This document shows positions 15,512-63,205 of a stretch of DNA of 64,000 nucleotides, piece after piece. How positions within the stretch are numbered: position 1 is the first letter of the stretch; each line of letters opens with the position of its first letter. The position numbers were made by a program, and so were the translations under genes. Below the pieces are notes generated by a model. That model did not search any database, was not told the origin of the DNA, and saw nothing but the letters and a program-made list of their open reading frames with translations. The stretch is from Xestospongia muta (taxonomy: Eukaryota; Porifera; Demospongiae; Haplosclerida; Petrosiidae). The stretch lies in the NCBI GenBank assembly GCA_963693285.1, contig OY848929.1:2358501-2422500 (forward strand). The letters are read 5' to 3'.

Positions 15512-18500
15512 TCACTGACACTCTACTAGTTTATCAGAAATAAATGTACGTATTTTAGTGAGAAATTTTAAAAAATGGTCGTTATCACCACTAGTGTGAT
15601 AAGAGTCATGTTTATTATATAATGGAGTACTGGTGCTGGCAATGCCAGGTACATTAGCAGCTGTAGGAGATTTTAGAACATCAAAATCAGCCTCAGAAGA
15701 AATAGGAGAAGCAATAGAAAATACAGCACTATCACGTGCTCCTGCTTGTGAAGAGCTTTCCATTGAAATTTGACTTTGAAAACTTTTGTATTCTGAGCCT
15801 GAACTATAACTACGACTACGACTTCTTGATAAACGTTGAATGGGTTGGGTGCTTGATTGTACTTCCTCTAGAAAGCTGTCTATTAAGTCTCTTAGTTCTT
15901 TCAAAAGAGAATTGTCTTGTTCTTTATTTAAATGTACGTCAGCATTCTCTGTAGCTTTTGGAGCTGGTTTTTCTTCTATACTGCTATCTAGCAATTGATT
16001 GGTTGGAGTAGATCGAGTGGGGTTTAGAACTTGATCAATGCTCTCAACCTTTGTCTGTAAGTTCTGTAAATCAGGAGAAATGTCATCATCAACCTTTTTA
16101 GACAAAGATTGAAAATTGTTCTCAGAGTTTGTCTCGACCTGGCTAATTTTGTCCCCTAATGCATCAACTTGTGTTTTTAGTTGAGGAAGGGATTGTGTGA
16201 TGTCATTCACCTTCTCTGATAGGGACTTGATATCATTCTGAGAACTTTCAACAGATTGCTTCATTTTTGTTTGAGCTCCAGCAAATTCAGCTACTTGATC
16301 CATACACTGTTTTAAACCTGCTTTGATCGATGACAGTTGAGGACTCATGCTATGGTTGGTAGCTTCTAGTTGTTTTACTGTATCTTGTACTTCAATAACA
16401 GTTCTTATTACAAGACTGAGGTCTTGATTAAGACGTTCAACTGCACGAGATAATTTCGCAATCACATCTTCTGAATTGCCATCACCAACGATCATAATAG
16501 ATTCCTAAAAATTGACAAAGGAAAGTGATGGTCAGAGTAGATGTGAGGAATAATGGTCAACAATGCATAGCACAGTAAAAATACTATATTTAAAGTAACC
16601 TGATGTGTGTGATATATTATCATGACTGTAGTGTTATTATAATATTTTATTATTATTATTCATTGATTATGTTAGCTAATTAATTTCTAATATATAATCA
16701 TGATTGATTTAGGAGAACACATGTCGAAATTTGGTATCAAGAGAAGAGTCTACATTCTGTTGCCATCGACTGTATTCAGGAACTATAAACATTATAACTG
16801 GCGTCAAGACACATAATCCTTTTGTAAACTACCTCAAACTTATAGTGATCATTTATTGTCTTTCTTCGGACATGAAGGCCTGAATTTGTGTCAAAATACT
16901 CAAGTAAAACTTTGTCAAACTTAGAATGGCCAAAGAAAGGCTAAGCTGTCACTTTTTTGTCAGTGAATTTATACAGATTGATTCACATGCATGCTGTGTT
17001 AGTTCAGACAGTACTTTCATTGTACTATGTAACGTTTGAGATACTTCTCCTCTATTATCTATTCTTAATGAGGGTAACAAGCACTTCAGATGTGGATTAA
17101 ATTCTATATTAGACAAATTTTGTGAGCAGGTTTCTGAACAATTGATCTAAATATAATATCTGTGAACACCAATAATTGTTTATACTGACACTTTATTATC
17201 TACTTGAAAGAATGAATACCATGTTATACAGATATCATACTTCTTTGGTGTATAAAGTACCAGAATAGAGGAGGAAAAAATTTGGAGACTCTGAAATTGT
17301 AGGCTGTCTTACATGAAATGGGTGTGACTAAGAACCAAAATTTAGTAAATAAATTTAATTTCTAGCAAATGCTGCCTGTTCAAGACAACATGGACATCTG
17401 TTCTTGATAAAAGCTACTGTTTGGAGATTCTTCGGCCTTATACAGTCATTTCAAAGATGAAAGATGAGATTGTTACCATATCATAGCAACAATATGATGA
17501 CTGGGCCTACACAGATCGATGTAGGAGCATTTTGTATTAACAGAGTCTCCATATGTTTCCCTATTCTAGAAATGTCAGACAACATGAGACTAAGTCAAAA
17601 CCATATGTTCTCCTGTCAATAGTGGTCTAGTAAAGCTTTGTGAGTAATGTTCCATCAAATGTTAACACATTAAGCTTTAATAGTCATTGATAAGTTAAAT
17701 CCTTGAATTGGACTCTGAACCTTTTCCACAGGTGGGAGGGGCTGGCTGCACTGGACTAAGTGAACTTTCTATGCTTTCATTGACAACAATAGCTTTTGAT
17801 AACAGCACAATGGATATAATAATATAAACCAGACCCTTCCCTCTAAGGGATAAGAGGCTAGACAGCCTACATGTGGTCTCGTGTGGGAAAGAATGCCTAG
17901 GAAACTGTGTAGAATAAGTTTGGTGTTATAGAAAGCTAAGTGGTACTAATGAAAATGAACACGCCACAATGTTATCACTACCTTAGCAGGAGTGTATGAA
18001 CATCACAAAGCGATGTGAAGGAGTGTCCAACTTGCATTATATTTCTATTCTAACCACTGTCAAAACACGGTCAGGAATTATTCCATATAAAGAAAATACA
18101 CTTACGTAGCATAAGTACTATTAAGTACGTGACGAAGCAACGAATATTATTACTATCAGCAATGGAGAGTAAAATGAAGAAACTAAGAAAGAAGTTATAT
18201 ACATCGAGAAACATTTAAAGATTTGGACTTGGAGGTTATGGATTATTAAGTCATTAAAGAAATGGAAACTGTTGAACAACATAATTATATCTCTTTATTC
18301 AACAAGACGAGTTCTCTGTCACTACATGAAGACTAATCTCAGGCTAGGGAAGTTGCTGGAGTTCTTACAGAGAGCTTTTTGCGGCTATTACAAGGGTAAC
18401 GAACATTTTGGTTGTTTCCTTGCTGCATGAAATAAAGAAATAGGCACTTTGGCTTGTGACACTTTCTCCACACAGTGGTGTGGTGCAACTAAACAGAGTA

Positions 18501-22190: not shown

Positions 22191-22985
22191 TCACTGATCT
22201 ACGTCTAGTAGTTTATCAGCAATAATTTTTCGTATTTCCTTAAGAAAATGGAGTTTGTCTTTCTCGTTATGATAAGAATGATGCTTAGAAAATGGAGTAC
22301 TGGCACTGCCAGGAGCATCAGCAGCTGTAGGAGATAGTGGTAACTCAAAACCAGTCCTAAAAGAGCTGGGAGAAGCAAGAAACACAGCATTGTCCTGTTC
22401 TGTTATATGCATTGAAGAATATTCAAAGGAACTTTGACTTTGTAAACTCTTGTAGTCTGAATCTGAACTATAACTACGACTACGAGTTCTTTGATAACTA
22501 GGTTGACGTTGAAGTGGTTTTACTTCTTCAAGATAACTGCCTATTAAATCTCTTAATTCTGTCAAAAGAGGGTAGTCTTGAGCCATATTTAAATCTCTAG
22601 CATTCTCTCCAACATTTGAGGCTGGTTCCTCTTCAATACTGTTGTTTACCAATTGATTGGATGGAGTAGACCAGATTGGAACTTGATCAATACTCTCGAC
22701 CTTTGTCTGCAATTCATCTATTTTCTTAGATAAAGATTGAAATTTGTTCTCGGAGTCAGTCTGAAGCAAGTTAATTTTATTTTCCAATACAATAACTTGT
22801 GCTTGCATATTACTAATATTAGGGAGAGATTGGGTAATGTCAACCATCTTCTCTGATAAGGACTGGATATCATTGTGAGAGCTTTCCATAGATTGCCTCA
22901 TCTCCATTTGATCAGCAGTAAGCTTAGCTACTTCATCAAAACACCGTTTTAAATCTGCTTTTATGGGTGAGAGTTGAGGACTCAT
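22191..22985 (-). CDS. Coiled-coil family gene F, N-terminally truncated relative of E
   Basis: From an ATG at 22985, 264 codons align throughout with gene E from MSPQLS onward: coiled coil, SRSYSSDSDYKS motif, Ser-rich region and a C-terminal helix ending IADKLLDVDQ. The frame stays open upstream to 23165, but that leader is unrelated to E and reads like intergenic sequence. The first 48 or so residues of E and the usual first exon are missing. The downstream flank (about 21960-22190) also matches 41290-41450 next to the decayed E copy. It could be a truncated pseudogene, or a gene with a new start. Nothing shows expression. Confidence 0.45.
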   Translation of the reverse strand: MSPQLSPIKADLKRCFDEVAKLTADQMEMRQSMESSHNDIQSLSEKMVDITQSLPNISNMQAQVIVLENKINLLQTDSENKFQSLSKKIDELQTKVESIDQVPIWSTPSNQLVNNSIEEEPASNVGENARDLNMAQDYPLLTELRDLIGSYLEEVKPLQRQPSYQRTRSRSYSSDSDYKSLQSQSSFEYSSMHITEQDNAVFLASPSSFRTGFELPLSPTAADAPGSASTPFSKHHSYHNEKDKLHFLKEIRKIIADKLLDVDQ

Positions 22986-23602
22986 GCTATCAAAAAGATA
23001 GCAGTGACCTGCTGAGGTAGTTCCCCTGTTTCGTAATCCTCCTGTTTCAACTCCACCCAATGCATGGAGAAAACAACTAACACTCAGCAGTATATGAATG
23101 TATAGATGGTCTAACCAATTGATGGAATTAAGGTTACAGGGGTGTCTCATTTTTAGTAAAGTCATACTATTCCTTTCAAATTCTTATTGTTGACAAAAAC
23201 CAAGTCAGTTTCTTGTACTTTTTTGTTTGTTCTAACCCCCTTTCCTTCTCTCCCTAGGTAGTAAACTGTGGATCAAACTACTTTTGTTAAACCTAAAAGG
23301 CAACACATTGTGGGATGAACTGTACTAAAGTAGACAGTTACTATTAATAGTTGCAGACTTGCAGGTCATATATCATGATAACATCATAGTCTTAATATAG
23401 CCATATCTTGTTGGTTCAGTTGTATTTTATTTTTGACATACACAGAAGTACTTAGTCACCACTATTATGGGAAATTTTATTACGATTTCAGGCTTCAATT
23501 TTGTGTCTTCAGATTGAAGTTTCCCTGTACTAGTAATTGTTATTTAACGTGTAAAAGAGTTGCAATTGTTTTACAAAACATTTATTAGTTTTTAAATTTA
23601 TA

Positions 23603-26237
23603 TTATGAATTCACATCTAATTCACTTAGAAAACGGCATATCTCATAAGCTAAAGCCTTGTTTTCAACAGGTGGATTACTAACAACATCAATGATTGTCT
23701 GCCAAGTGACTGGAGTATACTTGCTATCAATCCATTCCTGCAACATTTCATTGAGTTTATTATCATCAGGTGAAGGAAAAGACTGCAAACCTTTAAGGAC
23801 ATAATACGGTATACCTAATGATTCTCCAATTTCTATCCACTGATACGAAATAGGTTTTAACAATCTTAGTAGATCTATTGTCATGGGCCTTTTCTCAAGC
23901 ACTGCAGAAATATCTAAAGGATAAAATGGGAAGGTCTTTCATGAGAACAATCATTTAGAATCAAAGTTATCAGAAAAGTTAAAATAAGTATACAAAAGTT
24001 AAATACATGAATACATACATATACAAGTGCTCCAAAAGAACTTTAAGACCACACCTGGCATGCATAGTGTGCCAGGTGGAAAAGCTTTGCACTAAACTAT
24101 TAAGCAAACAAGCATAGACAAACTGTTTAATTTTGATAAGAGAAATTAAATGTAAGGATCACCAATGTCAGTATGATATAAAGAATGGAAACAAGGTAGT
24201 AGGAATGATAATTTCAGCATCTACTATACATAATAGCAAAGGCAAATGCAAAATGGAACAATGTCTATGGCACTCTGTGCATTACTCAGAGATTTTGATA
24301 TACAGTAATACATTTAGATTTGCTTGTGCTATCATGTAGAGATGATGAAACTGCCATCTTTACTACCTTTGTATAGCTAGGACTGATGTCAGTGATCCAT
24401 AGATTTAGTTAATTTTTCAATTTTTTACTTGTATAATAATTCAAGTCTAGCATTGAGAGCTGCTATTAGTATACTTTCCTTTAAGGTTACAGGATACTGA
24501 ATTTAACTGTAATATCAACTTACAAGTAAACAAAATTTTTAACCTTAAAAGAATGTCAATGCTGTATAAACTTAGTACAATATTTAATGAGATTCACAAG
24601 CTATGTGGTTTTATAGAATACAGATTATTAAAATGTATTTCCACTAAATCTACGTGTTGCTTCCAATCCCATGCCAGCATATTCTAATATTTATGATCAT
24701 ATAGTTAGCACGATTTTAAAAGAACTGGCAATGCCAGGCAGTACAAACTACACACATACATGTAGTTTATTCCCTTACCAGGTTTTACAACGTCAGTTAC
24801 ATTATCAGATGGATTTAAGTGAGTCACGTATTCTCGTAGCTTAGCTGCCACTTTCATATTGTCGACAATAGGACTTTCCACTGCAAGAATCACTGTCTCC
24901 CATGTCACTGGTGTAGATTGAGTATCTATCCAAGACTGAATGACTCTAGAAAGTCTCATTGAGTTGCTAAAGTTGCTTTGATCTAGGCTCATCAGGACAC
25001 CATCTCGCACATACAACGCTAACCCAACACGGTACCAATCGTATGAAATAGGAGATAGTAGTCTATGCAGGTCAAACATTGTGGGTTTCTGCTTCAAGAC
25101 ATCATAAATATCTGTAAAATAAGAGATCTAGTGACAATTTGTAATTGTATGTAGCTTAGTATATTCATATAAAAAAGCACTAACTAACTGTTAAAGTGCA
25201 GAACCCTCCCTCAACACATTAACAAATCTATAATAATCCAAATTAGGAGGTTCTGTAATTTATACGAAACATATTGTTAAGTTTATCACAAATTGCAGAA
25301 CCACCCACATTTGGATTATTAATGCTCACCATTTATGGTTACATTTGCCTGTAGAATTACAAGCGTATGCACATAGTAATTAATTTGAATTCTTCCAAAA
25401 TAGTGTTTGGTAAGTTAAAATATGTGGTTTTATTTAAAGACGTCAGGACCTTTGTTAATATTAAAACCAAAATTTGACAGATTTACCAAAGTAGAGGACT
25501 GGCAGATCAAATATCAAACCCTATGCTCACAACTATCATAGGATTATAATAAAATCATCCTTTGTGTAATGAACTATAAAGAGAAAATGGTGTTATAAGA
25601 TATATATTGCATACCATGTTTTTTAATGTCAGTTGTATTCTGTGACTGATTTTCTTGTAATAGAAACTTCCTCATATTATCTGCTACTTTCTTTTTTTGG
25701 ACAGTAGGACCCTCAACTGCCGAGATCACTGTCTCCCAAGTCACTGGAGTAGACTGAGATTCTCTCCAACACTGAATAACCTCTGCAAGCCTTTTGATGT
25801 TAGTAAATTTGCTCTGAGCTAGGCTACCCAGGGTACTATACCCTAGTTTCAATGCTATTCCAATATGCTCCCAATCATATGCAATATCAGCTAGCAAATG
25901 GAGCAAATCAGATTGACGAGGCACTTGCTTTAAAATTTCAGTAATATCTAGAAAACAAAAGATTCTCACTGACATAATAGGATATATGTATAATTAAATA
26001 AATCTATATATCTATATACATACATACATACATATACACATACACATACATACATACATACATATACACATACACATACATACATACATACATATGTACA
26101 TACATACATACATACATACATACAATATATATATACACAGACATACATACATATATATACATATATATAATTATATATATATACATACGCACACATATAT
26201 ATGTACATACATATATACTATTACATATATGTATGTA

Positions 26238-26279
<42 letters not shown>

Positions 26280-29200
26280 CACATATCCATATTTATATGG
26301 GTTCATTTGTTTTCATCATTTTATTGTCTTCTATGACAATCAAAGTGACAGGTGAACTTAAACTATAACCTTTAACTGGTAATACATACAACAACTCTGA
26401 ATTAACTCATTAACTCCAACTATGATTGCTACAATGATGAATGTGACTGACAATACTCAAACTGTCTTGCTAGCTTTGTAACTCTTTGTAGTTATAGTAT
26501 CTACAGATATTGATGCTAATTATCCAATCTCTGTAGCTCTAGTCATTGCCTCGCGTTACATACTGCTCTAATAGAAGAGTTTCAGGCAGCTTCAACAACT
26601 TTGCTAACCATCGTTGAATCATGCGAAATAGGTGTTAAGTGAAAAGGAGAAGCATGTAAGTGCAGAAGCCGTTTCTGTGGCCTACAAGGTTTTTGAAGGC
26701 TGTATGAGTCCTATATGCAATTGTCCCTAGGCTTTTCCTCTCTTAGTGAAGGGTCAGGAATCCCAGACCAGGTTTTAATCCATTGTTGTGTATGACTTTT
26801 AATAGTGATGAATAAAATTAACCCATATAAAGTAGCCACTGAGGCACATAACACTAATAATTACTCTTATCACAAGTACTTCAAATTAAGTATGACTGAT
26901 CAAAGCTTCTGAGTTCTGTGATTCAAGAAAGCACATATTTGAGCAGTTCCATAGCTTCTACCAACTCTCGATTATTGTACAAAAATTTCAAGGAAAGCTA
27001 GTTCATATAACTGTAATTTAGTGATAAACTACTCAGACAATCAGGACAAACCTCACACCATGTGATTTATAGACAATAAATAACAAGAGTATAATCAAAA
27101 AAGTTGGGTTATATTTTTTTCAAGTGCTGATGCTACAGTAATAGAGATTCATAAATGGTAAGTGTAGAGTGTAGCAACTGCAGGTAGTATGGTAAAGATA
27201 TTCAAAAGCATTGAAACATGACCAGTCATACGCATCGTCATAGCACTCATGGTAGAATAAATTACAACTCAAAGACAACTAACTCATTTGTACAGAATAT
27301 TATCTCACCTTTAGTGAGCCATGCCATCTGACGCTTCTTAATAGCAATTGTAGAAGAACCATCTTCACAGCATACAACCACATCCTTACTCTCAACTGGA
27401 CAGCATAGGTGTTGCCTTGTATCATGTATGGTACAGTAAAAACACGGCTGAGGAGGAGAGATGATTGCTTTGTAATTGAATCTCTTAGTCACAGCCTCAA
27501 TTCCATCATAAATTGCATTTCGAATCTCCAAACATCCTTCTGAATGACCGGAATAATATATCTCAAGCCAGTAAATTGAATCAACCAACAGAATTCCAGC
27601 CATCAAGTTGTTACATTCCAAAAGTATTGCATTACGATATTGGGAATCACTACATCGATGTTGTGATAACTCAAATGCTGGAGTAGAATGCCGGTTGAGA
27701 AGATTCACACTCAATGCAAGAAAAAGACCTCGAGGTATAGGCTCCATGTTCCATGATAAAATAAGAGGATCGACACATTTCATGAAATTTTGGTGCAATG
27801 AGTCCAAATGAAAAGTCATAGAGAGAGCACTCGGGATAAAGAACTTTCCATGTTGTGGTAGAGGGGCGACAATATACAAATTCTCCATTAACTTCAAAAA
27901 ATGGTCAGCTGAGAACTCAGGAGAAAAGCCTTCAAAAAGATATTCTGTCAGCAAATCTAGATCAAAAATCCCTTCATTCTTCAATTGTTCGTGTGCTCCT
28001 GGAGGAAGATCAATCTCATTATCCTCCAAATGATCCACAGCCTCAGGAATAGAAATACTAATTAGTTCAGACAACTTATCCAATAGCGGCTGTGGGTGAA
28101 GGAACACAATATCTGGGAGGACTTCAGGAAAGTAGAGGAATTTCCCTAAATCAATGAAAAAAGCCAATGCTTCTTCAACTTCACTAGGACCCACGTTGAG
28201 AGCTTCTCCAATTCTAACACACTCATCAGATTTCCTTGCAATCTTGATGAGAGAGGTTTTCTGAAGCTGGTCTAGATTTCGCTGGAATAAAACCCATCGA
28301 AAAGGGATATCTGCTTCCTTGTAAAATTTAGATATCTTGCGACGAATTAAACTAGTCATTTTAAAATTACTAGAGTCACTCGCAAGAGGAAAGATCACCA
28401 TATGTCTGGATTCTTGATAGTTTAATCGAACCTTTTCAAATTGTTTCAAAGTTGACCACAGTATTGCATCTTCTTCACTAATCTCATTTGAATGCATACC
28501 CAGTACCATAATGTGGGACATATCTGGTGGGTCTATAGATGCTAGTGAGCGAAATGAAGCTTCAAGATGTTGTAAATGGGTTAGCTGGTGTTCAACTGGT
28601 TCAGGGAACAACTTCCCTTTGACATTGTAGTAGAAGACACATTTACCTTCAAGCTTTTTATCTAGATTGAGTGTGAGAATGTTGACTTGATTATATTGCA
28701 GAATAGCTGGAGCAATATCCATAAAGGCAGGTTGCCCACCTGAATCTAGGCAGTAGATCCAATGCACACTTCGTTTATCTGACATCTTTTTGGCCATTAC
28801 TGTCAAAGAGTCATGGTCCATCTTCATCCAAAAGTTGTCATCATTTACCATGAGATTAGTGGTCTTAACTTCAGACAGCATATCTGCTGATGTACTACAG
28901 TCATTTGAAAGAGGCTCATCAAGTAGTAGTTTTATAATAGATGATCTGCAACTTCCTGGAGGACCTGAGAAGGAGACACTGGTCCATCTCAGAGTCACAT
29001 AACTTTCAAGAGGACACTCCAGAAAGTCAGAATAATCTATAACATATGAATAGGAATCATATAAATAAAGTACAAGTAAAATAATTAAGATACACAAACA
29101 TAACATTTTCCATAAATTCTGTAATGTAGGCAGTACTAACCAAACATTACGGTTTTAGTTTTTCTAGAAGGGAATGATATTATCCTATATTATCAACCAG

Positions 29201-32200
29201 TTTATAGATATCTAAAGACAAATCATCAAGCATTATCCAACAGACAAATATAAGTATATTGAATGCACAACATTTTGGGATATGTGAGCAAGCTAATGAG
29301 AGCTGAAGATTACTGGATGAGTGTCATTGCAGAGAGAAGTGACTCTACTAAGTATCTGCTCTGCAAACAATGTAGTGTATGAAGAGGTCAACTGCAATGC
29401 TAAAGTAGAAGATACAGGACAAAGTACAACTGTAGGCCATAACACTGTTAATATTAAGTATTTCTAATTAAGAAAAAATAACAAACAATGATAATACCAA
29501 GGCAACATAGGTTAAATTGCAAAGTAGTTTAATGACAGCTATAGCTGGTCCTGCATCTAGCATGTTGGCATTGCAGTTGAATTTCTCCTTATATTTTATC
29601 TACATATTAGAGATGTTTAGACTAGAATTACTTAGGACATTACAAATTGTAATCCTGCAATTCACACCAGATTTCTAAAACACGTGAGTTTGCACAAAAT
29701 GCCCATTCAAACAGGATATGACCACCTATTTTAATTGTCTTGCATTATCTTAAGTGGACTTACATTCAAATTTCCTTACAAATACAATGCTCATTGAAAT
29801 GAACTTGCAAGGCAGTTTCGCTGAATATAATTTTTGATGCATAACCAAATACAGTGCACTTGTATAAATAAAATCAATTCATATTGGAAGTGAATTGAAT
29901 GTGCATTATATGACCAGTACGAATACACCTAATAAGATTACACAAAACATTCACAACTACCAGAAAAGTGACCTTCATACATAAATAAATGCCTGGATTC
30001 ATCACTTTCAACATCTGCACACAACAATAAAAGTAACAATGTAAGTGGACAAAAACATGAGGCACTACTACTGCCTGGTTTACTTTGCATGTTTGGTAAT
30101 AAAAACAGTCAAAACTGATAAAACACTCACCAAGGAAATAAACAGCCTTTGATAGCTGTGACATGACTTCAATGCCCTGTCCAATAGATATTCGGTTGCC
30201 AGAGCATTTTGAGAATCTAGTAGGAAACATGCTCATGAGAGCAGATATTTCGAAAGTCATTGATATAAGATCAGCAGTCATTGATCGGTGCTCAAAAACT
30301 TCATTTAAAACTACTGTTGACAAGCTAGAGTTGCTAATTTTCCCTTTCTGGGTGGACCACATAACAAATGTATCAGGGGTAATATGATATCGAGGTGGCT
30401 GAGTTGTTTTAGCTGGAACAGAATTGACAAAAAAGAGCTTTGGTTTTCCTAAAAGGGAATGACACCGGTCTATCCTATCAACCAGTTCACAGACATCCAG
30501 AGATACATTGTCAGATGTTATACAACAGACAAAGCTGTCATAAGCAGTGTGATCCATAGAGGCTATTTCTTCCATTAGTTGCATCATTTGTGAGGCCGTG
30601 ATATTGGAGTGGCATTGAACTGAGTAATGTAAATGTTCAAACAAGCCTTCAAACTCAGTTGTAGCTCTTCCAGGTAAACTATGTGTACTATCCTGGTTTT
30701 TAATGACTAGAGCAATACCATGTGGTCGTGCCTTCATAAGGTAACGTGGTCTTGGTATCTCTTTTATGTTTTTGCTTGAATGTTCTGTAACAAACTCTAC
30801 TGGTAGAAATAAACTACACCCCTTACGACAAGGAAAAAAACAACTGCTGTAACAACCACTAGCAAAAGTGTTATCACCCAAAACTGGACTATCCTAGAAA
30901 AAGAGAATTTCAATAAAACTTGAAAATGTATTGATGAAGCCTTGTTGAATATGTAATCTCATGTACTTGGAAAGAGATGAAATTTAGCAATGACATTCTA
31001 ATTAGTGCCCATCATGCTGCTCTACATTTCATGCAATCCTTGGCAATAAACAATTGTGGGTATTACTGTCACAGACACTTATCATAAATTAACATATCTT
31101 AGAGGTGATGGCATTCTTAAACCAGACAAGGCAATAGAGCTATTACATATGACATCATTTCTACAAAAGTTTGAGCATGTATCAGTCACCAAGTAAGTCC
31201 CGCTTTTGAGAGACCACAATTTGCGTGTACCGACACAATGCAATACAAAACCACCTCTAGTCAAAGGCCACCACTTTTATGAGACCAGAGACCACTAAAA
31301 TCGTGCATTATTAAGACCATTAGAAGTGTAAATTGCATGTAAAATTCAATGCATGCACATAATTGCAGCTGTATTATCATGTGACTTGCAGCTGTAGTTA
31401 ACTAAAGTAGTACTTAATGCTTTTTGTAATACATGTACATACATTTTCTCATGATTAAAAATTGATCCAACCCATTACCCCACCCACTTCTAGTGGAAGA
31501 CCACTTTTTGTTGGATATGAGGGTGGTCTCTCAGAAGAGGAACTACTATATTGGCAAGCTTAATTGTGCTTTCAAGTCTTTTGTAAAATTGGTGTGTTAA
31601 AGTACCTTTAAGCACAAAAACATATGTCTTTTGTACATTTCACACAGTCATAAATCTTTTCAATTATTACAAATACTATCCCTTAAACCCTTAAGGGTTG
31701 TCCGAGATTTAGACTATCACATTGGGGTTCTGTACATAAGTACATTTCACCTCATAAGTATCAGTTTCAGTTATTATAACCAAAAAAACTTGAATAAATA
31801 TCAAATGTTTATTGTTACACATATGGTTATACTTTATGCCTAAGCTTTTAGAAAGTGCTTGAAGTTGTGCCTCAAGCAATTCATCAACTGTTTGCCCTAT
31901 ATCTATAATAAAAATACTTGTACGGTACAAAAAATGCTAATCACTTCTAGTCTTCATTTTTAGACATATATCACAGTGGGGCATTATGACTATCTCATAC
32001 TTGGGAATTCCTATGTCTGCAAAGTCTTTCCCATTGTGTGCAGCTTGACCCCTTCTACTTGGAATGGGTGTGGTATGTGAGAACCTACCCCATGGGTGGG
32101 TACATTTCAAAGTAGCAAGTTCTATCCTTTCTCACTATTTACTTACTGTTTCGATTCCAGCAAACACTTGTTGGTCACCAAAAGATGGCAACACTCCCAA

Positions 32201-32386
32201 CCATTTCACTACACCAGCGATGGGTTCAGTAGCGAGTAACCAAATCTTTTTTTCTTCAATTTTATTAACATTCTCAGTGGCATACTTCCAGAAGTCACTA
32301 GGAAGAACAAGTCTGTCTTCTAGAGAGAGGAAGATGGGTTGATCAGAAGATGGTAGAGACACAGACACATTTAGCTTGACAGCCAT
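23603..32386 (-). CDS. CAP-Gly-like / pseudocaspase / Roc-COR / triple Death-domain protein (7 exons, 1249 aa)
   Basis: Exons: 32386-32147, 30893-30131, 30014-29973 (optional 42-nt micro-exon), 29036-27309, 25947-25615, 25111-24779, 23913-23603. All phases agree and the total is 1250 codons with the stop. Residues 58-115 resemble a CAP-Gly domain (GVVKWLG...FAGIE, then CSLFLPVE) split by an intron. Residues about 132-250 are a caspase fold (ARPHGIALVI, KPKLFF) where the His-Gly and the QACxG active site are replaced by TSDN and VNSVP, so it should be inactive. The Roc-like part has a degenerate P-loop GPPGSCRSS and a DSGGQ switch. COR follows (about 600-720), then a Cys/His patch (CFYCTIHDTRQHLC). 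Three Death domains end the protein; Death 1 and Death 2 are each a 333-nt, phase-1 exon. Probable cytosolic death-fold signalling protein (inference). Confidence 0.8.
24150..24402. mobile_element. MITE-like element, same family as 37930-38205
   Basis: The ends (GATCACCAATGTCAGTATGA... and the complement GGATCACTGACATCAGTCCTA...) are related in inverted orientation, and the internal ...GTAGTAGGAATGATAATTTCAGCAT... recurs at 37978-38000. It lies in the intron between the second and third Death exons. Confidence 0.5.
26005..26282. repeat. Compound microsatellite (ATAC)n / TA-rich / (GT)n
   Basis: Interrupted TACA and TATACACA units cover about 26018-26235, followed by a pure GT run at about 26241-26275. 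The open frames across it on both strands are artefacts of the repeat. It sits in the intron between the Roc-COR exon and the first Death exon. 26283-27308 shows no further coding sequence. Confidence 0.95.
29150..29252 (-). pseudogene. Decayed partial copy of the pseudocaspase exon inside an intron
   Basis: This stretch aligns with 30436-30535 of exon 2 of the same gene: both carry a TTTTCTAGAAGGGAATGA-type block, then TATCAACCAGTTTA/CACAGA and ...CAACAGACAAA. It holds stop codons and lacks flanking splice sites. It is evidence for a past internal or tandem duplication of this exon. Confidence 0.6.
31192..31548. mobile_element. Possible MITE with GAGAGACCAC-type inverted ends
   Basis: The left AGTAAGTCCCGCTTTTGAGAG and the complement of the right AGTAGTTCCTCTTCTGAGAG are similar in inverted orientation, followed on both sides by ACCAC. 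It lies in intron 1 of the minus-strand CAP-Gly-like gene. Boundaries are approximate and no target duplication was found. Confidence 0.4.
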
Positions 32387-32451
32387 TTCTCAAGTACGAT
32401 CGCGTGGTCCGTCACGGTTTCCGATTAGGCGGAATTGTTAACTTGGTGAAG
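32387..32451. promoter_or_regulatory. 65-bp bidirectional start region of the divergent gene pair
   Basis: The start codon of the minus gene (32386-32384) and that of the plus gene (32452-32454) are separated by only 65 bp, which is relatively GC- and CpG-rich (GTACGATCGCGTGGTCCGTC). No TATA box is evident. Transcripts must start within this stretch or overlap antisense to the neighbouring first exon. Confidence 0.6.
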
Positions 32452-35400
32452 ATGGAGGTCGAGCTGCCGTTCATTGATGGAGCATTCCCTCTCTATTTGG
32501 ATAAAGAAGTGAATGGTATACCGATTGACTTTAATGGTGATCATTTGACTGCAAACGGCGTGGTGAAATGGTTGGGGAAACTACCCGTTAGTAACTCAAT
32601 AACCTTTGCTGGATTAGAAATGGTCAGTACCCAACTGAAGGTATTTTAATCTCTAACTTTAAACTTATTAGTTAACTATATTACCCCACTTTAACCATAC
32701 ATAACTTTTAGGAGGCTTAACCTGCTGTAATTGCCTTGTTTTATAGACAATATGTTCTAGCTACCTTAAGCCTACTATTAATTGTATCAATTAAACTTGG
32801 TGATTTTAAAACATTTGGTATTAATTTCAGCAATTTTTTACATTTAACTATATTTTATTCCTGAAATAAACATTTTAGTATATATAGATTTTAGCAATTT
32901 CAGCATTTGCTAAATTTGCTAAAATTAGTACATACTATTTATAGTAGGTTAATTATGCTTGCACAAATGTGCTATAGCTATGCTGAAGGACAGGGAGAGT
33001 CTGGTACTATATTAGATGCTGGTACTATCATAAAGTTTAGAGGCAACATAACTAGGATTGGAAATGCCCATGTCTGGTGACCTAGCCCCTCCTCCTTTTT
33101 GATTTGTCGGGAGAGTCTAGAAATGAACATACTGCTATATAGTTTTGAATGGAATTATTATAGTTGCCTACTTCCCATTTTCTGGCACTGTGTTTAAGGG
33201 TGATTTTGGATTTGTTGCTAAGCAAAATGTACTGAGAGTGTGTTTGTAGCCTTTTTTCTTGATAAATGCTAACATTTTGTCTTTAAGTTGCAGTATATTA
33301 TGTTCCTGTCTTTGTGTTTGCAATATATACTTCTATTGGAATGTGGGGCAATACCACAAATGTTTACATAGTGGTTATGAATTCTTAATTATGATTGCCA
33401 TAATTTTGGTGTCTAAGTAGAAAATTAAATGAAAAGGCTACACTCTGTACGTGTATACATGTTGATAACGACCACTAACTCAAATATTATAACTCTAGCT
33501 AGGAACAAGCTAGAGAGAATTTATACCATTCAAAAGACCATGCAAGTTTAAATATTGTATCAAAAACTAGAGTGCTAGTTATTTAGGAAAGTCGTAAACC
33601 AGAAATCCTATATAAAGTGAATGGCATTCTTCACATTCTAGTGTGATCTGATGTCATTTAAATTTGCATATTATTAACAAATGCTTAAACAAACAAGTGT
33701 TTTCCAGCAGAAAAGTTTAGAAATTCTTAAAAATACCTTTAACAATAAAATTAGGATATATTAAGAAAAGACAGTGACAAAGAACCACGTAAAACTTCAA
33801 TATGACTCACAAAAAATGCTGATGATCATGATGTTGTCATAATTGAATTCTACTAAACTGCAGTCGTTGTCAATATGAACAGGGTGTACCTTGCTAACCT
33901 TGGAAGTTAAAATTCTAGACCATGAGTTGCAAATATTTCTAAAAATACTTGCATATAACTCTGACATAATTAAGAGTTTCCTAAAGGGACACTACATGTA
34001 CTACTTGAAAAAGTAGTTCAGCCATTCTCTTGTCTTGTGGATGGCATTTCAGCTAAAGGATAGCTTAGTGAAAAAAGTAATGATTCCATTTTATGTGTAA
34101 ATTATATTAATTACAATCACATAAATTGATATAGATTATGATGTTTAAGTGCTAGCACAATTTGCCTTGACATCTAAGCAAAGCATATTTTCACCTCTAT
34201 TATCAATCTTGAAACAGAAAAGTAGTTTCATTATTAGAATAATAATTCCAAAAGTAAATATGAACATGGTACAATAAAATCATATGCCTGGTGCACCAAT
34301 ATGTGTGTCAGGTATTATGTTTGTTTAATTTTTTATTGTTTTTTTTGTATATAAATTTAGGACAATTGCTCGTTTACGTTTAATGGCTCGTATGGTGATA
34401 TATCATGTTTTAATTGCTCTGAGAAATGTGGAGTGTTCTTACCTGTTGAATTAGTTGTGAGGTATTGCAACAATGATCTTCCAAAGTCAACATCAAATTA
34501 TTGCATGACTGCTAGGCCACATGGAATTGCTCTCATTATTGAAGTAGGGAGTACTGAAGGTTGCTCTCTCTGCTACATTGAGGATACTTTCAAGCATTTA
34601 AGATACAAAGTTGAACTCCATTCTAAAAATTCTAGTTCACAAATGACAAAACTTGTGGAAAAGATAGTTTCTGATGATCACAAAGATTATGATAGTTTTG
34701 TCTGTTGTATATTATTTAGTGAACAATGTCAACAAATTAACGTTGATGGACTAGTGGATAGCATCCAAAAGTGTCCTTCACTAGATGGAAAACCAAAGCT
34801 TTTATTTATTCAGAGTAGCCAAGAATTGTTTCAGTGCTCATCGCAAAATGTTGGTCCCGATATGCTTATCGTGTGGACAAGCCTAAATGGAATTCATGAT
34901 CAGTTTGCGATGGCTTTATGGAAAGCTATCAAATGTAATATCAGAAAGCTTGGTCTGATCTCAGTCATGGAGAAGGTATCTGCTTATTTTGTCAGCATGT
35001 TCCCCCCAGAAGAAACAAATATGAAAAAGTATATTGAAATCTATAATCAACTTAAAAAAGAAGTCTACTTTTTATCTCCAAATGAATTACCTGGTATGTT
35101 TTGAATTTTTATGACATCTATAATTGTTCTCTATCTTGCAGATTATTCAGTGTGTCTGAAATCCCCTAACGAAGATTGTATTACCTTTCAGTGGACCACA
35201 CTCATCCTCTCAGGTCCTCCTTCAGCAAGTGATTTGTCGATTTTGAAGTTATTGCTCAACAATAGTGCTCAACCTAATGAGTCTCCTGACGGTGCTCATC
35301 CCGAAATCGGAAAGATAGAAACTAGTATCTTGCAGGTAGAAGAGTCCAATACATGGAAGACAATGAACTATGAGTCATTAAAAACTGTGGGGAAAAGGTT

Positions 35401-38400
35401 ATGAAAGATGGTAATAAACTGCATTTTGTTAATGCTATTGAATCAAGAGGTCATGCTGTCTTTCTAGATATTGTTTCACCCTTACTGCACTATAATCCAG
35501 TGATCATCCTTGCATTAGAGTTGAGCCAAAAGCTCAAGGATGATAAAGCCATGTTTTACAATGTTGAGGGTGAGCAAATCAAGGATGAGTTAAAGGAACG
35601 ACAAGTAACACATTTAGAGTTCCTTGAAACATCATTCCGTTCTCTGTTGTCCATTAGAACACCTGACTTGCCTGTCAGTTGTCCCTCTAAAAAACCTAAA
35701 CCTTCGATTCTAGTTCTCGGCATTTCAGATGAAACTATCGATTGTAATGAGTCATTAGCTGACAAAAATACCACTCTGTGGCCAAAATTGGAACAGTTTA
35801 GAAAGGTAAATCTAAGTTATAAAGAATCAAGACAGATGGTTATTTTTCCTGTCAATCCAAAAAGAAGTGGTGATGAGTATCACAAGATTGCTGCAACAAT
35901 TCGTCGTAAAATATGCAAATCTTCCATTGACGTAACAATTTCTCACCAGTGGTTCTTGCTTTTGCTGAAGCTATACCAACTACAGTCTGGACAACAGTCT
36001 GCAAAAATTATTAGAAAAAGGGAATGTGTAAGGATTGGTAAAGGCTTAAAGATGGATTGTGGTGACGTTGAAACAGCTTTAATTTATTTTCACCATCTAA
36101 CTTTTATCTTCTACTTTCCTAAAGTCCTTCCTGATATTGTGTTCCTTCACCCACAACCAATCTTCAATAAGTTGTCTGATTTGATTAGTATTTCCATTGC
36201 TGATGCAGTGGATCATTTGGAAGATGATAAGGAGATTGATTTAATGCCAGGAGCACATACTGACCTCAAAGATTTGGGAACTTTTGAACATGACCTATTG
36301 AAGATTTTTCCACTTTTTCCTACTGACTTTACAGCAGAGGATTTCTTGCGACTAATGGAGCATTTTAATATCATTTCTTATTTGCCACAGCAAGGAAAGT
36401 TCTTTTTACCTCGTGCCCTTCGTACTACTCTCTCTGAAGCCTTGACCTGTCGTTATAAAGCATATGTTGACCCTCTTGTCTTGACCTGGAATGAACCCAT
36501 ACCTCAAGGTCTTTATATTACATTGGTTGTTAATCTTCTTGGACGTAAGAACTCGCCAATATTTGATCTTGTACCAGAATCTGTCCAAAAATATCAATAC
36601 CGTAATGCTATTCGTTTACGATGTGTAGATCTAGGAAGTTCTGTTCTTTTAGTAGAATCTAATTATTGGCTGGAGATGTATTACTTTGGTTTTTTAGATA
36701 GCTGTCCACTTCTCCGTAGTGCGATTTTAACTGAAGTTACCAAAGTTGCAGAGAAATTTCACATTAAGAAGATAGAACCTGAAGTGTGTTTTTATTGCAC
36801 AAAGCATGAAGAATCAAAACACCTTTGTCGTGTACATGAATCTAAAAGAATAACCTGCTGTGAACACAGTGAAATGTATGTTATGGATCGTAAATATCAG
36901 CTCCCATGGTTTGAAAATGTGGGATCTGAAACTGATAAAAATCTCCGAGGTTAGTATATATATATAGTGTTATGTGGTAATGTTCTACTGATACTGGTAT
37001 TGTTATTGGTACCAACACCAGTATATTAGTATTGATAAACAAAAAGCCAATGCTAATCAGGCAGATGGTACACTGTAAAAATTGATTTGTTGATTTAACT
37101 AATATATTGTTATACAGGTTGCATGTAGCAAAGTTAATATAATATGAAAGTAAACTTAACACCTGTTTTTATTACTAATATTATTAATATTATATTTATT
37201 AGTAATAAAAACAGTGTTATGTCTATTTTCACATCATATTAGTTTGCTACCTGCAACCTGTACATATAACAATATATTAGTTAAATCAACAAATCAATTT
37301 TCACAGTGTAGCACTCCCTTATATAGGGATGGTCATAATGAAATGTATTGGCAAAAAAATATCTCACCAAAACACATAAGAAAATTTCAATAGTTGTCAA
37401 TCTTCCTCCCTAGGATAATGCCTATGCCGTGACTGATTTATAGGCTAAGCATTGTTTCTAAGCATCGCAGTAGAAGTTGGTAAAAATGCTGAATTGTTTA
37501 TGTTTCTTCTTTTTTGTCTGCATCAATAAAAAGTAAAAGATTTTGCCACCATTTTCACAAATGCAGCACAATCTAAAAGAAATATCTGCTTTTGCATTTC
37601 ACGTTTTGAGTGCTTTAAAAATGAAACCAAGTAATTTCAGCAATTTGCTATCAAGAGCTACTCTTAGAAAAGCTATTTTTATGAATAATTAATATTAACA
37701 GAAAAGAAACGGATGCAAGTAGAGATCTGAAAAGCATAGTCTCCTACTTCTGGTAATAATTATTATTTCTTCATCACAATATGTACAAGAATGCTTTTTT
37801 GTGAGCTGGTTGAATATGAAACTTTGTTGCCTTCTAACATGCTACAGTTTTTCTATTTATTTTCAAAACATTTGCATTTAAAAAATGAAGAAAAATAAAT
37901 AAAAAATATTTTCTAATAAATGAAGTAAATGTAGAGCTAAGTAATATCAGTCTAATACAAAGAATCCAAACAAGATAGTAGGAATGGAAATTGCATTATT
38001 CCTACATAATAGCACAGGTGACATGAACAATTAAGGATATACACCAACTATCTAAATCACTTAAATAATATCAGTAATATCAGTGATATATTATTTGAAT
38101 TCTGTGCATGTACTATTATGTAGGGATCATGCTGATTATCATCCCTACCATCTCATTTGTATTCTTGTATTAAACTGATATTAGCCATCCCTATATTTAC
38201 TTACATTTTTTATAAGATGATTTTATTTACTGGTTAATATTAAGGTGGAGGTCAGGAAGCCTGTCAAATGCTTGTTAAATATATTCATTTCACATTGTAT
38301 TATGTTACATTTATATTGCAATGATATGTTACATACAGTTTAGGTACATTTTTTCTTAGTTCTTGTTACTTGCACTGAAATTTTGTACACATACAGGGGG

Positions 38401-39646
38401 GGGGTGTTGTTACATTTTGCTTCATCTTGTTACTGTGATCATGAAGAGTTATAATGCAAAATGTCACTACACTATTAAGATTTAATGATCTGGACTTGGT
38501 AGTTAGTTTATAATATGTTTCTGTAGGATTTTAGTCTTAGGTATATAATACCAACTTGTATCAAGTTTCATTTTCATATTATGGACACAGTAGCAAAAGG
38601 TGTATCTTTGTATATCACAATTAGAAAGCAGATATTGTTGAAATATTCATCAACTGTATTTGAAGTTTTATAGCAGTGATAAAACTTTTTTGAGTTAAGT
38701 AAATGCTGCAAAATGAGCTTTGAAAGCTCTTACTATAGTTAATGAATATTCATAATCTGCCTGACCACACATCACCACTCAATAAGCCTAAATTTGAAAC
38801 TTTTCTGCAATGTGCATTTCGAACTGAGTGTGGTCCAAGGAATGCCTTTCACACCTTGTCCACTGAAAGAGACCTTTCAAAAGTATAGACTATGATAAAT
38901 TAATCGACAAGTTAAGCTTAACTAATAGAAAAGTTCTTCCTATTTTCATTGAGCCTTGTTGTATTTTCATACATTATTTGACTGACTAACACAACGTGTG
39001 TACTGTAACTCTTGCCCACGTAGAGCTTAAGGCCATGCCCCCCACCTGGAAACTTTGCTCTGCAGTATTAATGAATTATTTTTAAAATCATTATTCAAGA
39101 GTCACTCCCACCGGTGAATTAGTATGCAACAATCATGGCAGCTAAAAAGTGACACATGTAAACAGTTTACTGTTATAATATAGTTTGTTTAAATTATTAT
39201 AATTATTGTATAAACATAAAAAAGTAAAACAGAACATAGTGCTATCCATACATTGGCAGCACTACTACCTGCCTGATCATATTATGTACATTTGCAAGAT
39301 CATTAATGTTCTATTCCTAATAGATATTACTGCAGTGTTGCAAAAGGAACCAGACCAACATGACTTGCTTAATATACTAGCTACCATTGATGCCAAATGG
39401 CAAGAAATTGGCCTGGGTTTAAATATAAGGGAAAACGACCTCTCTGACATAGCTGATAAGAGTAAGTCAAACACAGTACGTCTTTCTGCTGTTCTACAAA
39501 AGTGGATGGAAACTTCAACAAGTATAACATGGCAAACAATCATTGTGGCCATTGGTGGCCCTATTGTTCGTAGTCATAATAAAGCAACAGAAATATGTAG
39601 ATTTCTGGCTGAACCAGAAAATTATTCTAAGTACAACAAGAAATGA
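32452..39646 (+). CDS. CAP-Gly-like / pseudocaspase / Roc-COR / Death protein (4 exons), with a frameshift
   Basis: Exons: 32452-32622 (donor GTCAGT; a second phase-0 donor at 32641 is possible), 34361-35093, 35142-36949, 39324-39646. Domain order matches the divergent neighbour. CAP-Gly-like: GVVKWLGKLP, FAGLEM, then CGVFLPVELV. Caspase fold: ARPHGIALII and KPKLLFI, with FSEQ and IQSSQ where His-Gly and QACxG should be. Roc-like with an unrecognisable P-loop (GPPSASDLS) and switch (ESRGH), then COR, a CFYC...H..C patch and one Death domain. Within exon 3 the frame changes at about 35396-35404: one frame ends GKRL-TGA and the other continues MKDGNK, and homology to the neighbour runs straight through. 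This is a real one-base frameshift or an assembly error in a G/A run. Otherwise the exons are intact. Confidence 0.72.
37071..37308. mobile_element. Palindromic mariner-like MITE, 238 bp, TA target duplication
   Basis: The ends match over about 29 bp with one mismatch (CACTGTAAAAATTGATTTG / complement CACTGTGAAAATTGATTTG), and the element folds almost end to end. It is flanked by TA on both sides (37069-37070, 37309-37310). A related copy is at 55382-55628. It lies in the last intron of the plus-strand CAP-Gly-like gene. Confidence 0.8.
37930..38205. mobile_element. MITE-like element with inverted ends
   Basis: The left AATATCAGTCTAATACAAAGAA and the complement of the right AATATCAGTTTAATACAAGAA match, followed on both sides by AAACAAGATAGTAGGAATG-like sequence. 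Same family as 24150-24402. The rest of this intron (38206-39323) has a G9 run at about 38396-38404 and no gene. Confidence 0.55.
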
Positions 39647-48167: not shown

Positions 48168-48299
48168 TCATAGAACATATTTTATGAAGTAATTTGATTA
48201 TAATAATTATTATAAACTTTGATAATGATTGCTTTTATTGTTGCTGAAAAATTGGAAACTTGGGGTGGACCGTTTTAATAGTCTCTGCCTCTTTTTATT

Positions 48300-49318
48300 A
48301 TGGGTAACAATATTAATTTGTTAGAGGAAGAGATTAGTGATGAAGACATTGATAAGATAGCTACTGCTATGCCAGAATGGGAAAGACTAGTTCGATATCT
48401 GTTTGACAAGGACAGTGACGCTAAAATAGTGGATATCAAAAGAGATCATAATGAGCACCATCATGAACAGAAGATAGCTTTACTGACTCTATGGAGACAA
48501 AGTAAAGGATTGGATGCTACATATGACGCACTTATTAAAGCCTTAGAGTCAATGGGAGATCAGAAAACTGCTAATAGAGTATATGACATAAAGACAGGGC
48601 AACTACGACAACAGAAGAAACATAGTTTACCTTCAAATACTGTGTCTTCCAATCAATCATGTTACAAAGTAGTTTTGTGGAGTCTTCCTATTGCAGTATT
48701 AGTATGTGCCATACTTGTGATACCATACATTGGCACTACAAATGAAGGTACATAGCATAGTATATATAAATTTTGTGCTTATTATTATTAATAACTAGCA
48801 ATAAAAGATATAATTAATTTAATGATAGAATTATTTACAATTGCCATAGAGAATGATGTAAATCCAAGTCATGGACAACTATATAATGATCATGTTTGTG
48901 TTAGAGGAAGTGGACACACTGATGTGAGAGAAAATGGAGGTTTGTACATGACTTTAAGAAGGAGTAATTATTTTTTACTTGTTAATTATCTTTTTCTATT
49001 CTTTTTCATCAAGGGGTAATTCCAAAAGATGAGAATCTCTTGATTCATTTAAAAAGCATCTCAGAGTTCCTACAGTTCTGTATCTATCTGGGTCTTGAAT
49101 ACAATGAATGTAACAGAATTGAGAGAAAGAGAAGAGATATTGATGATCAAATAATTGAAATGTTACAGAAATGGCGAGAGAGAGATTCTCGTACTTGGAG
49201 AGATTTTATTAAACCATTTATAATGTTAAGGAAATGTACTAAAGCTAAAGAATTAGTTGAAAAGTATAATGTTATATTTTATGATTCAAAAATTAATGAA
49301 ATGTGTCTAACTATTTAA
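48300..49318 (+). CDS. Death-TM-Death membrane protein (3 exons, 287 aa)
   Basis: Exons 48300-48747, 48829-48939 and 49014-49318 join in phase 1, giving 287 residues. Residues about 17-97 look like a Death domain (helical, with W near 27 and LLTLW near 61-65). Residues 124-145 are a clear membrane segment (VVLWSLPIAVLVCAILVIPY) preceded by basic sequence, with no signal peptide visible. After a polar linker, residues about 195-275 form a second Death-like domain (LEYNECNRIERK, then IIEMLQKWRERDSRTW). The start is 132 bp downstream of the SEC23IP stop on the same strand. A second, divergent copy is at 63206-64000. A Death fold on each side of one membrane segment is odd, since Death domains act in the cytosol. 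The topology, or the second domain call, may be wrong. Confidence 0.75.
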
Positions 49319-63079: not shown

Positions 63080-63205
63080 AACATATTTTATGAAGTAATT
63101 TGATTATAATTATTATTATAAACCTTGATAATGATTGCTTTTATTGTTGCTGAGAAATTGGAAACTTGGGGTGGACCGTTTTAATAGTCTCCGCCTCTTT
63201 TTATT

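Follow-up and report, generated by a model that had tools for sequence, protein, structure and literature searches.

The window analysed here, a stretch of 64,000 nucleotides of Xestospongia muta, contains a head-to-head pair of genes, gene A (32386-23603, minus strand) and gene B (32452-39646, plus strand), which share the domain order CAP-Gly, caspase fold, Roc-COR with a Cys/His patch, and one or more Death-like exons. By analogy with known proteins, we interpret both products as one-chain CAP-Gly/pseudocaspase/Roc-COR/Death scaffolds in which a cFLIP-like pseudocaspase would be embedded in a ROCO-Death scaffold that has lost its GTP switch, a reading to which we would give even chances. 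We are equally divided on whether this doubly dead scaffold, with a pseudocaspase and a pseudo-GTPase placed between CAP-Gly and Death, is a conserved form that originated from a family with an intact P-loop and has been kept as a pair. That the interval holds two paralogs with this domain order had been proposed in a sequence-only reading of the DNA, and this is supported by profile searches and by the continuity of the predicted splicing.

Gene pair and predicted exon models

The predicted splice models of A and B agree in exon order and phase. For gene A, six exons joined at GT-AG boundaries are open across 1,235 aa; gene B likewise consists of GT-AG exons, with a single frameshift inside exon 3 that is absent from three homologous frames elsewhere (P0078, P0079 and P0080 are intact). 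The features of the pair, with the evidence on which they are based, are the following:

32147..32386, minus strand: gene A exon 1, start codon and N-terminal half of CAP-Gly (GVVKWLG..LP...FAGIE); GTAAGT donor
30131..30893, minus strand: gene A exon 2, C-terminal half of CAP-Gly and pseudocaspase; caspase fold at about 30719-30132
27309..29036, minus strand: gene A exon 3, Roc-COR module; COR-A 2.2e-9 on the open frame (Pfam)
28939..28965, minus strand: gene A degenerate P-loop GPPGSCRSS; sequence and column counts
27370..27435, minus strand: gene A Cys/His patch, located towards the end of the exon that encodes COR; pattern C-x7-H-x-C-x10-C
25615..25947, minus strand: gene A Death-like exon 1, phase 1-1; 51% identical to Death-like exon 2
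24779..25111, minus strand: gene A Death-like exon 2, phase 1-1; exon comparison and profile match
23603..23913, minus strand: gene A Death-like exon 3 and stop; Pfam Death below cut-off, profile match
32387..32451, no strand: intergenic 65 bp separating the start codons of A and B
32452..32622, plus strand: gene B exon 1, start codon and N-terminal half of CAP-Gly; spliced CAP-Gly score
34361..35093, plus strand: gene B exon 2, C-terminal half of CAP-Gly and pseudocaspase; Peptidase_C14 1.3e-12 on the open frame
35142..36949, plus strand: gene B exon 3, Roc-COR module, with the Cys/His patch at about 36796-36861; homology to gene A exon 3
35374..35404, plus strand: frameshift of gene B exon 3 in the assembly; overlap of the frames 35105-35404 and 35374-36954
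39324..39646, plus strand: gene B Death-like exon and stop; Pfam Death below cut-off, profile match

The short stretch between the two start codons is presumed to be a shared bidirectional promoter. A decayed fragment of a caspase exon is located at 29153-29248, and tblastn searches of 20 kb on each side of the window (L009, L010, L024, L025) found no third copy.

The caspase and Roc-COR modules

The caspase part of both proteins is recognized by the Pfam family Peptidase_C14 (5e-11 and 3e-12 for the full models of A and B, respectively, and 1.2e-11 for the open frame of A). The best PDB matches of gene A exon 2 are caspases, including caspase-8, and for gene B exon 2 cFLIP ranks second among the PDB matches (E 1.3e-7). 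The catalytic His and Cys are both missing in all 39 aligned rows of the caspase family, A and B included; only the outlier P0077 keeps the two residues. Judged by its residues, the caspase part of A and B is catalytically dead, and the missing catalytic residues led us to rule out an active caspase. It is conceivable that protease activity is still provided by a displaced nucleophile, and 19 of the 39 family rows indeed show a Cys one position ahead of the usual catalytic Cys. However, neither A nor B has such a Cys, and a His in the catalytic column is found in none of the 39 rows (P0058 has a His close by); we regard this explanation as extremely improbable. A single scan of viral contigs for relatives of the caspase exon, with A1 as the query, gave none.

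In the full model of gene A, COR-A is detected with 2.3e-9 and 37.8 bits (Pfam cut-off 35.3), and the first 18 Foldseek matches of the AlphaFold2 model of gene A exon 3 (pLDDT 86.4) are Roco, LRRK1 and LRRK2. The structure check suggested with the sequence-only reading is thus in favour of the proposed folds, for the Roc-COR module of A directly and for the caspase through the relative P0048, on which, and not on A or B, the caspase structure was modelled (Foldseek 7e-19). Gene B exon 3 alone has no Pfam match; it shares about 45% identity with exon 3 of gene A across about 515 aa, and its 93% counterpart P0079 has a precomputed COR-A. Chlorobium Roco is found weakly by the Roc-COR sequence profile (E 0.0049). 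The arrangement by which ROCO proteins are recognized, Roc directly followed by COR, is seen in A by Pfam and the structural model, and in B by homology.

The Lys of the G1 motif (P-loop) is present in 60 of the 67 rows that have a residue at this column. It is missing from P0034 and from each of the six A/B rows, and 60 of the 61 rows other than A/B keep it. At the G4 Asp column all six A/B sequences are without Asp, as are P0110 and P0164, with G4 being less clear-cut than G1 in that P0078 and P0079 have an Asp one position earlier. Because the G1 Lys is lost and the G4 column is devoid of Asp in all six sequences, A and B are, as judged from these motifs, ROCO proteins by descent and fold and not ROCO GTPases. 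The Cys/His patch at the end of the module is retained in all six A/B sequences, and its positions C, H, C and C are present in 73, 70, 68 and 72 of 73 aligned sequences; we infer that the patch may bind metal. The earlier proposal of a signalling platform had implied working enzymes, a part which does not stand: since the caspase is dead in every aligned family row and the GTPase degenerate in A and B, a scaffold, decoy or brake would fit better than an executioner.

The loss of catalytic residues, of the P-loop and of the reading frame of B might also be the result of pseudogenization, A and B being nothing but decaying copies. Both are located on long branches in the Roc-COR tree, and the frameshift in B and the decayed caspase-exon fragment mentioned above are in line with such a process. 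On the other hand, the reading frame of A continues through six predicted exons, other sequence records contain open counterparts of the A and B exons with 81-99% identity, the Cys/His patch is intact in each A/B sequence, and the caspase dyad is missing throughout an otherwise conserved family. In addition, partial counterparts of A and of B, with open frames, are found together on each of three contigs (13,558, 10,068 and 1,780,685 bases), a pattern that speaks for selection on the degenerate form. We therefore consider decay improbable.

CAP-Gly and Death-like exons

The CAP-Gly domain is interrupted by an intron and is whole only once spliced: the frame of gene B exon 2 scores 14.7 bits, while spliced gene B reaches 33.9 bits (E 3.1e-8, Pfam cut-off 26.5). 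In gene A the spliced segment scanned alone gives 25.9 bits (E 9.5e-6), just under the same cut-off, and a Pfam scan of the full-length model shows no CAP-Gly match. The relatives P0048, P0057 and P0065 combine CAP-Gly and caspase domains in a single frame, and for one of these three the CAP-Gly score is 42.3 bits after removal of its presumed intron. A profile built from five spliced CAP-Gly segments matches ten PDB sequences, from CEP350, Restin, CLIP-115, CYLD and one RIKEN cDNA product, all of which we take to be CAP-Gly domains. Neither A nor B shows a clear GKNDG, the usual motif of CAP-Gly domains. In the predicted structure of P0048 the CAP-Gly region is unfolded, with pLDDT mostly below 50 there; the frame of P0048 contains an apparent unspliced intron, and its CAP-Gly is covered by few alignment rows. 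As predicted in the sequence-only reading, profile searches thus find CAP-Gly (above the cut-off in B), caspase (in A and B) and COR (in A).

On the sequence comparisons, Death appears to be the weakest of the four domain calls. The Death-like exon of gene B scores 20.6-21.6 bits (E 2.4e-4 at 21.6 bits) and the third Death-like exon of gene A 15.6-16.9 bits (16.0 alone), both under the Pfam Death cut-off of 22.6, and Death-like exons 1 and 2 of gene A have no Pfam Death match. A search of PDB with a profile of the four exons gave nothing significant (0.085 for FADD, the best Death match, and 0.018 for an unrelated protein). The comparison of the four exons with Pfam-scored Death domains of the same genome at the profile-profile level resulted in a score of 33.6 (P 1.1e-5), the maximum in 200 column shuffles used as a control being 17.8. 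In A and B these exons, with their sub-cut-off Pfam scores, sit C-terminal to Roc-COR, the place of the Death domain in the DAPK1 group. Putative Death domains are thus suggested in both proteins by the profile-profile match and not by Pfam, with three such exons in A and one in B.

Known systems and proposed role

Among the matches listed in a search of open-access titles and abstracts, no description of a four-domain fusion of this kind was found, in agreement with the novelty claimed for it beforehand. A and B would thus represent a new combination of known domains, the function of which we infer by comparison. With cFLIP (CFLAR), the pseudocaspase partner of caspase-8, they have in common a caspase fold without the catalytic dyad. 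cFLIP contains tandem DEDs and is not known to carry CAP-Gly, Roc-COR or Death, whereas no DED is among the Pfam matches of A and B, whose N-terminus is CAP-Gly. The CAP-Gly domain itself is shared with CYLD and the CLIP family; a USP-type deubiquitinase domain had no Pfam match in the A and B models. Roc-COR is followed by Death in the DAPK1 group and in ROCO-Death proteins of Trichoplax and Amphimedon, and by Death-like exons in A and B. DAPK1 has ankyrin repeats. Its kinase is described as preceding RocCOR (PMC6337361); A and B in contrast have CAP-Gly and a pseudocaspase before Roc-COR and have lost the P-loop Lys, and no kinase domain is among the Pfam matches of the 1,235-aa gene A model. 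A dead enzyme ahead of Roc-COR is described for Entamoeba IMLRK (inactive myotubularin-LRR-ROCO-kinase; PMC4104024), but this is a different dead enzyme, with a kinase in place of Death and in another lineage. Lineage-specific mixed Death-superfamily architectures, some with caspase, are described for the Death/TRADD-N/caspase proteins of Amphimedon, for which the sections of that paper considered here do not mention Roc-COR or CAP-Gly (PMC8195603). A protein of Dysidea avara may combine some of the domains of A and B; CASc and COR are among the abbreviations in a figure legend on NLR architectures of this sponge (PMC12909245).

Alternatively, A and B might be receptor-like intracellular adaptors with a dead GTPase, in which CAP-Gly or a ligand site senses, Death signals and the caspase fold is merely structural. 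CAP-Gly and Death are located at opposite ends of the chain, and expansions reported for ROCO proteins with Death or CARD in Trichoplax (PMC4104024) and, on a huge scale, for Death-like architectures in Amphimedon (PMC8195603) would be compatible with such a role. Nevertheless, the blocks that are invariant in exon 2 (RPHGIAL-like and DSFVC) fall within the caspase part and suggest a specific surface rather than a filler; we view the adaptor as possible but rather unlikely.

In the scaffold reading favoured here, which relies on analogy with cFLIP, LRRK2/DAPK1 and CYLD, the Roc-COR part would form a dimer platform, CAP-Gly would capture the tail or a peptide of a partner as in CYLD or CLIP proteins, and the Death domains would recruit Death-domain adaptors or be recruited to them, while the pseudocaspase would pair with a real caspase and tune it, comparable to cFLIP with caspase-8. 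Among relatives whose P-loop is intact, GTP would act as the switch of the platform; the platform of A and B would stay in a single state, rendering them constitutive scaffolds or dominant brakes on their switchable relatives. Control of caspases by a dead homologue of the cFLIP type is best known from vertebrates. If the scaffold reading is correct, a cFLIP-like brake has been built into an LRRK/DAPK-like platform, of which a natural GTP-independent version exists beside GTP-switchable relatives, and a conserved pseudocaspase in cis with Roc-COR and Death in what appears to be an early-branching animal would point to a repeated or early origin of caspase pseudoenzymes. The relatives with intact P-loop and the A/B proteins would then constitute a natural experiment that asks if GTP is required at all for a ROCO platform to serve as a scaffold in death signalling, which is also of interest for LRRK2 and DAPK1.

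Relatives and probable spread of the fusion

Of the 15 contigs of the A/B Roc-COR clade, 11 carry caspase ORFs, compared with none of 43 other contigs. This is a post hoc comparison made after shared contigs had been noticed, in which contigs are distinguished by base count only, gene B served as the seed of the caspase search, which favours close relatives, and the clade is provisional (the tree has no support values and includes 72 of the 124 Roc-COR proteins found). Because caspase exons share contigs with the A/B Roc-COR subclade and not with others, the fusion is probably not private to the A/B locus, as far as these sequences indicate. In 25 loci compared, Roc-COR matches were present in 7 (representing fewer genes, with L002 lying inside L011) and CAP-Gly or caspase matches in 0; most of these stretches are cut, and front exons may lie outside. 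The named relatives among the matches are two Amphimedon queenslandica proteins with 25 and 29% identity, and LOC109587808 (P0163) of Amphimedon, one predicted protein, passes the Pfam cut-offs for COR-A and Death.

These relatives also bear on the question of whether the exons belong to two or more adjoining separate genes, one of them encoding CAP-Gly/caspase and another Roc-COR/Death. Splicing is predicted, and the introns of the predicted models reach 2.4 kb, which would leave room for such an organization. Yet the GT-AG junctions are phase-compatible and occur in identical order in A and B, caspase ORFs co-occur on contigs in a clade-specific manner (with the post hoc and gene B-seeded nature of that comparison), and LOC109587808 unites COR and Death. 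Considering splice phase, domain continuity and contig co-occurrence, we hold separate genes to be very unlikely. On one further contig, of 423,264 bases, a copy of gene A exon 3 (98% identity) is accompanied by a caspase exon that shares 48% identity with that of gene B.

Exon structure of the two divergent genes

A sequence-only reading of the DNA between 23603 and 39646 had proposed two genes that share one order of four domains, CAP-Gly-like, caspase, Roc-COR and Death. We rebuilt both as exon models with predicted splicing, tested the domains by profile searches and compared relatives; the rebuilt models agree with the proposed order. The window is located on contig 13 of the 158-Mb assembly (28 contigs), and the two genes diverge from start codons 65 bp apart, at 32386 (minus strand, gene A) and 32452 (plus strand, gene B).

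Exon models of genes A and B
32386-32147, 30893-30131, 29036-27309, 25947-25615, 25111-24779, 23913-23603, minus strand: gene A, six exons, GT-AG model
32452-32622, 34361-35093, 35142-36949, 39324-39646, plus strand: gene B, four exons, GT-AG model
35374-35404, plus strand: frameshift in exon 3 of gene B, two frames overlapping

Every modelled intron has GT-AG borders, the coordinates of both last exons include the complete stop codon, and the model of gene A gives 1,235 residues of uninterrupted reading. According to the exon lengths, intron 1 falls in phase 0 and all later introns in phase 1. This makes the inner Death exons symmetric, so a duplication of them would preserve the frame; the first two Death-like exons of A, 51% identical, fit such a duplication. 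The frames of P0078, P0079 and P0080, public-sequence counterparts of B (96, 93 and 82% identical to its exon 3), are unbroken, which points to allelic variation, a recent event or a fault in the assembly as the source of the break in B. Intron 2 of A contains, at 29153-29248 on the minus strand, a decayed caspase-exon fragment (56% identity over 32 residues to exon 2 of A), the trace of an earlier extra copy.

The CAP-Gly domain is interrupted by intron 1. For B, the match rises from 14.7 bits in the exon 2 frame alone to 33.9 bits after splicing (Pfam cut-off 26.5); for A, a Pfam scan of the full-length model gave no CAP-Gly match, and the spliced segment scanned alone stayed slightly under the cut-off (25.9 bits, E 9.5e-6). 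The segment of one relative reached 42.3 bits, and database annotation places CAP-Gly and caspase within a single frame in the homologs P0048, P0057 and P0065. A profile of five spliced segments matched ten PDB sequences, from CEP350, Restin, CLIP-115, CYLD and one RIKEN cDNA product, all presumably CAP-Gly domains. AlphaFold2 gave no fold for the CAP-Gly part of P0048; this frame apparently includes an unspliced intron.

Death is the weakest of the domain calls. All four Death-like exons are mutually homologous, and a profile-profile comparison matched them, over 74 columns, to Death domains encoded in this genome (score 33.6, probability 82%, P 1.1e-5), which speaks for the proposed Death domains, but every exon remains under the Pfam cut-off of 22.6 bits (21.6 bits for the B exon, about 16 for the third of A, no Pfam Death match for the first and second of A). 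Controls gave at most 17.8 for 200 column shuffles, 11.2 for the reversed alignment and 7.6-17.9 for three unrelated alignments. The comparison set comprised six of eight loci, two on the opposite strand having been dropped; two of the six (L003, L004) lie in the window, and leaving these out lowered the score to 27.7 (P 1.5e-4, probability 52%). Against the PDB, a profile of the four exons found nothing significant. The paralogous locus L016 encodes Roc-COR followed by two Death-like exons (37-51% identity), and in Amphimedon LOC109587808 COR-A and Death both pass Pfam within one predicted protein.

Catalytic residues of the caspase and Roc-COR parts

We consider the double loss of catalytic residues the most interesting feature of A and B. 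That both carry a caspase fold, as had been proposed, is borne out by clear Pfam Peptidase_C14 matches (A 5e-11, B 3e-12) and by the structure predicted on the CAP-Gly/caspase frame of the relative P0048, whose best caspase match has an E of 7e-19; PDB matches of the A and B caspase parts were effector caspases and caspase-8, and for B also cFLIP. We aligned 40 sequences, several of which are nearly the same. The outlier P0077 alone has the catalytic His and Cys, and all 39 others, including A and B, lack both (His column: another residue in 28, a gap in 11; Cys column: another residue in 38, a gap in one), so that the loss is a family trait. A Cys stands one position earlier in 19 of the 39, A and B not among them, and P0058 has a His near the usual catalytic place.

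The Roc-COR module was likewise recovered, in A through COR-A, barely above its Pfam cut-off, and through the AlphaFold2 model of exon 3 (mean pLDDT 86.4, pTM 0.87), whose first 18 Foldseek matches are bacterial or archaeal Roco proteins, LRRK1 and LRRK2. Exon 3 of B scanned alone had no Pfam match and is assigned by its alignment to exon 3 of A (45% over about 515 residues). The Roc-COR sequence profile matched Chlorobium Roco in the PDB weakly (E 0.0049). Our alignment of 73 sequences leaves out the window's own B exon owing to its frameshift; the P-loop of that exon reads GPPSASDLS. Of the 67 rows having a residue at the G1 lysine position, 60 keep the lysine; the exceptions are the six A/B sequences (P0039, P0103, P0105; P0078, P0079, P0080) and P0034. 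The same six A/B sequences lack the G4 aspartate, which is weaker evidence than G1 because the Asp is also missing in P0110 and P0164 and is displaced to one position before the column in P0078 and P0079. Three of four G3 positions are altered in the B sequences but kept in A. The Cys/His patch noted in the sequence-only reading, C-x7-H-x-C-x10-C at the exon end, is conserved at its four residues in 73, 70, 68 and 72 of the 73 sequences, and none of the six A/B sequences lacks any of the four; a putative metal site is a fair guess.

Relatives and proposed working

Among the relatives listed, those with a species name were two Amphimedon queenslandica proteins (25 and 29% identity), which makes a sponge the likely source of the genome. 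In a tree of the 73 Roc-COR sequences, drawn without support values, A and B group as long-branched sister sequences, and the other members of the surrounding clade keep intact P-loops. Caspase-exon proteins occur on 11 of 15 contigs with Roc-COR of this clade compared to 0 of 43 others (Fisher 6e-9), in a post hoc comparison that used 72 of 124 Roc-COR proteins, distinguished contigs by number of bases and seeded the caspase search with gene B. Parts of counterparts of both A and B lie together on three contigs (13,558, 10,068 and 1,780,685 bases), and from this co-occurrence the pair probably predates this genome. It may also contain ROCO genes that lack the front part. The 10 kb upstream of the L016 Roc-COR (L021) contain no CAP-Gly or caspase match; among 25 loci picked around Death matches and the window flanks (several incomplete, L002 inside L011), seven gave a match to Roc-COR, and no locus matched CAP-Gly or caspase. 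A full-length search, which scored the best 7,997 candidates by shared words, yielded 37 proteins of 680-862 residues (sources ena or lgn), none of them a complete protein with the make-up of A and B.

The analysis shows the predicted order, the folds, the dead residues and the conservation of the patch. By analogy to known families, the COR part would dimerize, the Death part would recruit Death adaptors, CAP-Gly would bind a peptide or acidic tail, and the pseudocaspase may pair with a live caspase in a cFLIP-like manner. The ancestral type might have been a GTP-switched Death platform with its own caspase regulator, activating or restraining, and A and B would be versions of that platform minus the GTP switch. 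Published work reports that ROCO in Trichoplax is accompanied by Death, CARD and many further domains and that in Entamoeba an inactive phosphatase stands ahead of ROCO (PMC4104024). DAPK1 is described as the animal ROCO group having a Death domain (PMC6337361), and for Amphimedon the count of Death/TRADD-N proteins runs into the hundreds, a part of them containing caspase (PMC8195603). None of these passages joins all four domains, and among the papers listed in searches of the open-access literature none treats the combination; we thus rate A and B as a new combination of known domains.

Other features of the window and the genome

Two plus-strand frames of 157 aa at 48282-48752 and 63188-63658 (clear Pfam Death domains, 47 and 48 bits) are identical at 148 of 157 positions and on this likeness are a duplicate pair; a further Death frame lies at 48986-49315. 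In the whole genome, Death matches are abundant, partly clustered and spread over many contigs (e.g. 6, 9, 3, 2); the best 150 of 1,488 candidates were scored, all above the cut-off, and about thirty of these have an open frame of 362-398 aa. Directly behind A ends a row of long minus-strand frames of 280-396 aa (8311-9498, 10312-11151, 12015-13007, 15515-16504, 22191-23183), possibly a tandem family; three of the five were scanned and gave coiled-coil-type Pfam matches, all sub-threshold. Adjoining IgGFc_binding frames are located on the minus strand at 51228-52661 and 53598-55088 (E 7e-55 and 1.6e-52). On the plus strand, 4248-4694 is transposase-like, with ZSWIM1-3 RNaseH-like above the cut-off and MULE slightly under, and 58177-60381 is LINE-like, with endonuclease and reverse transcriptase domains.
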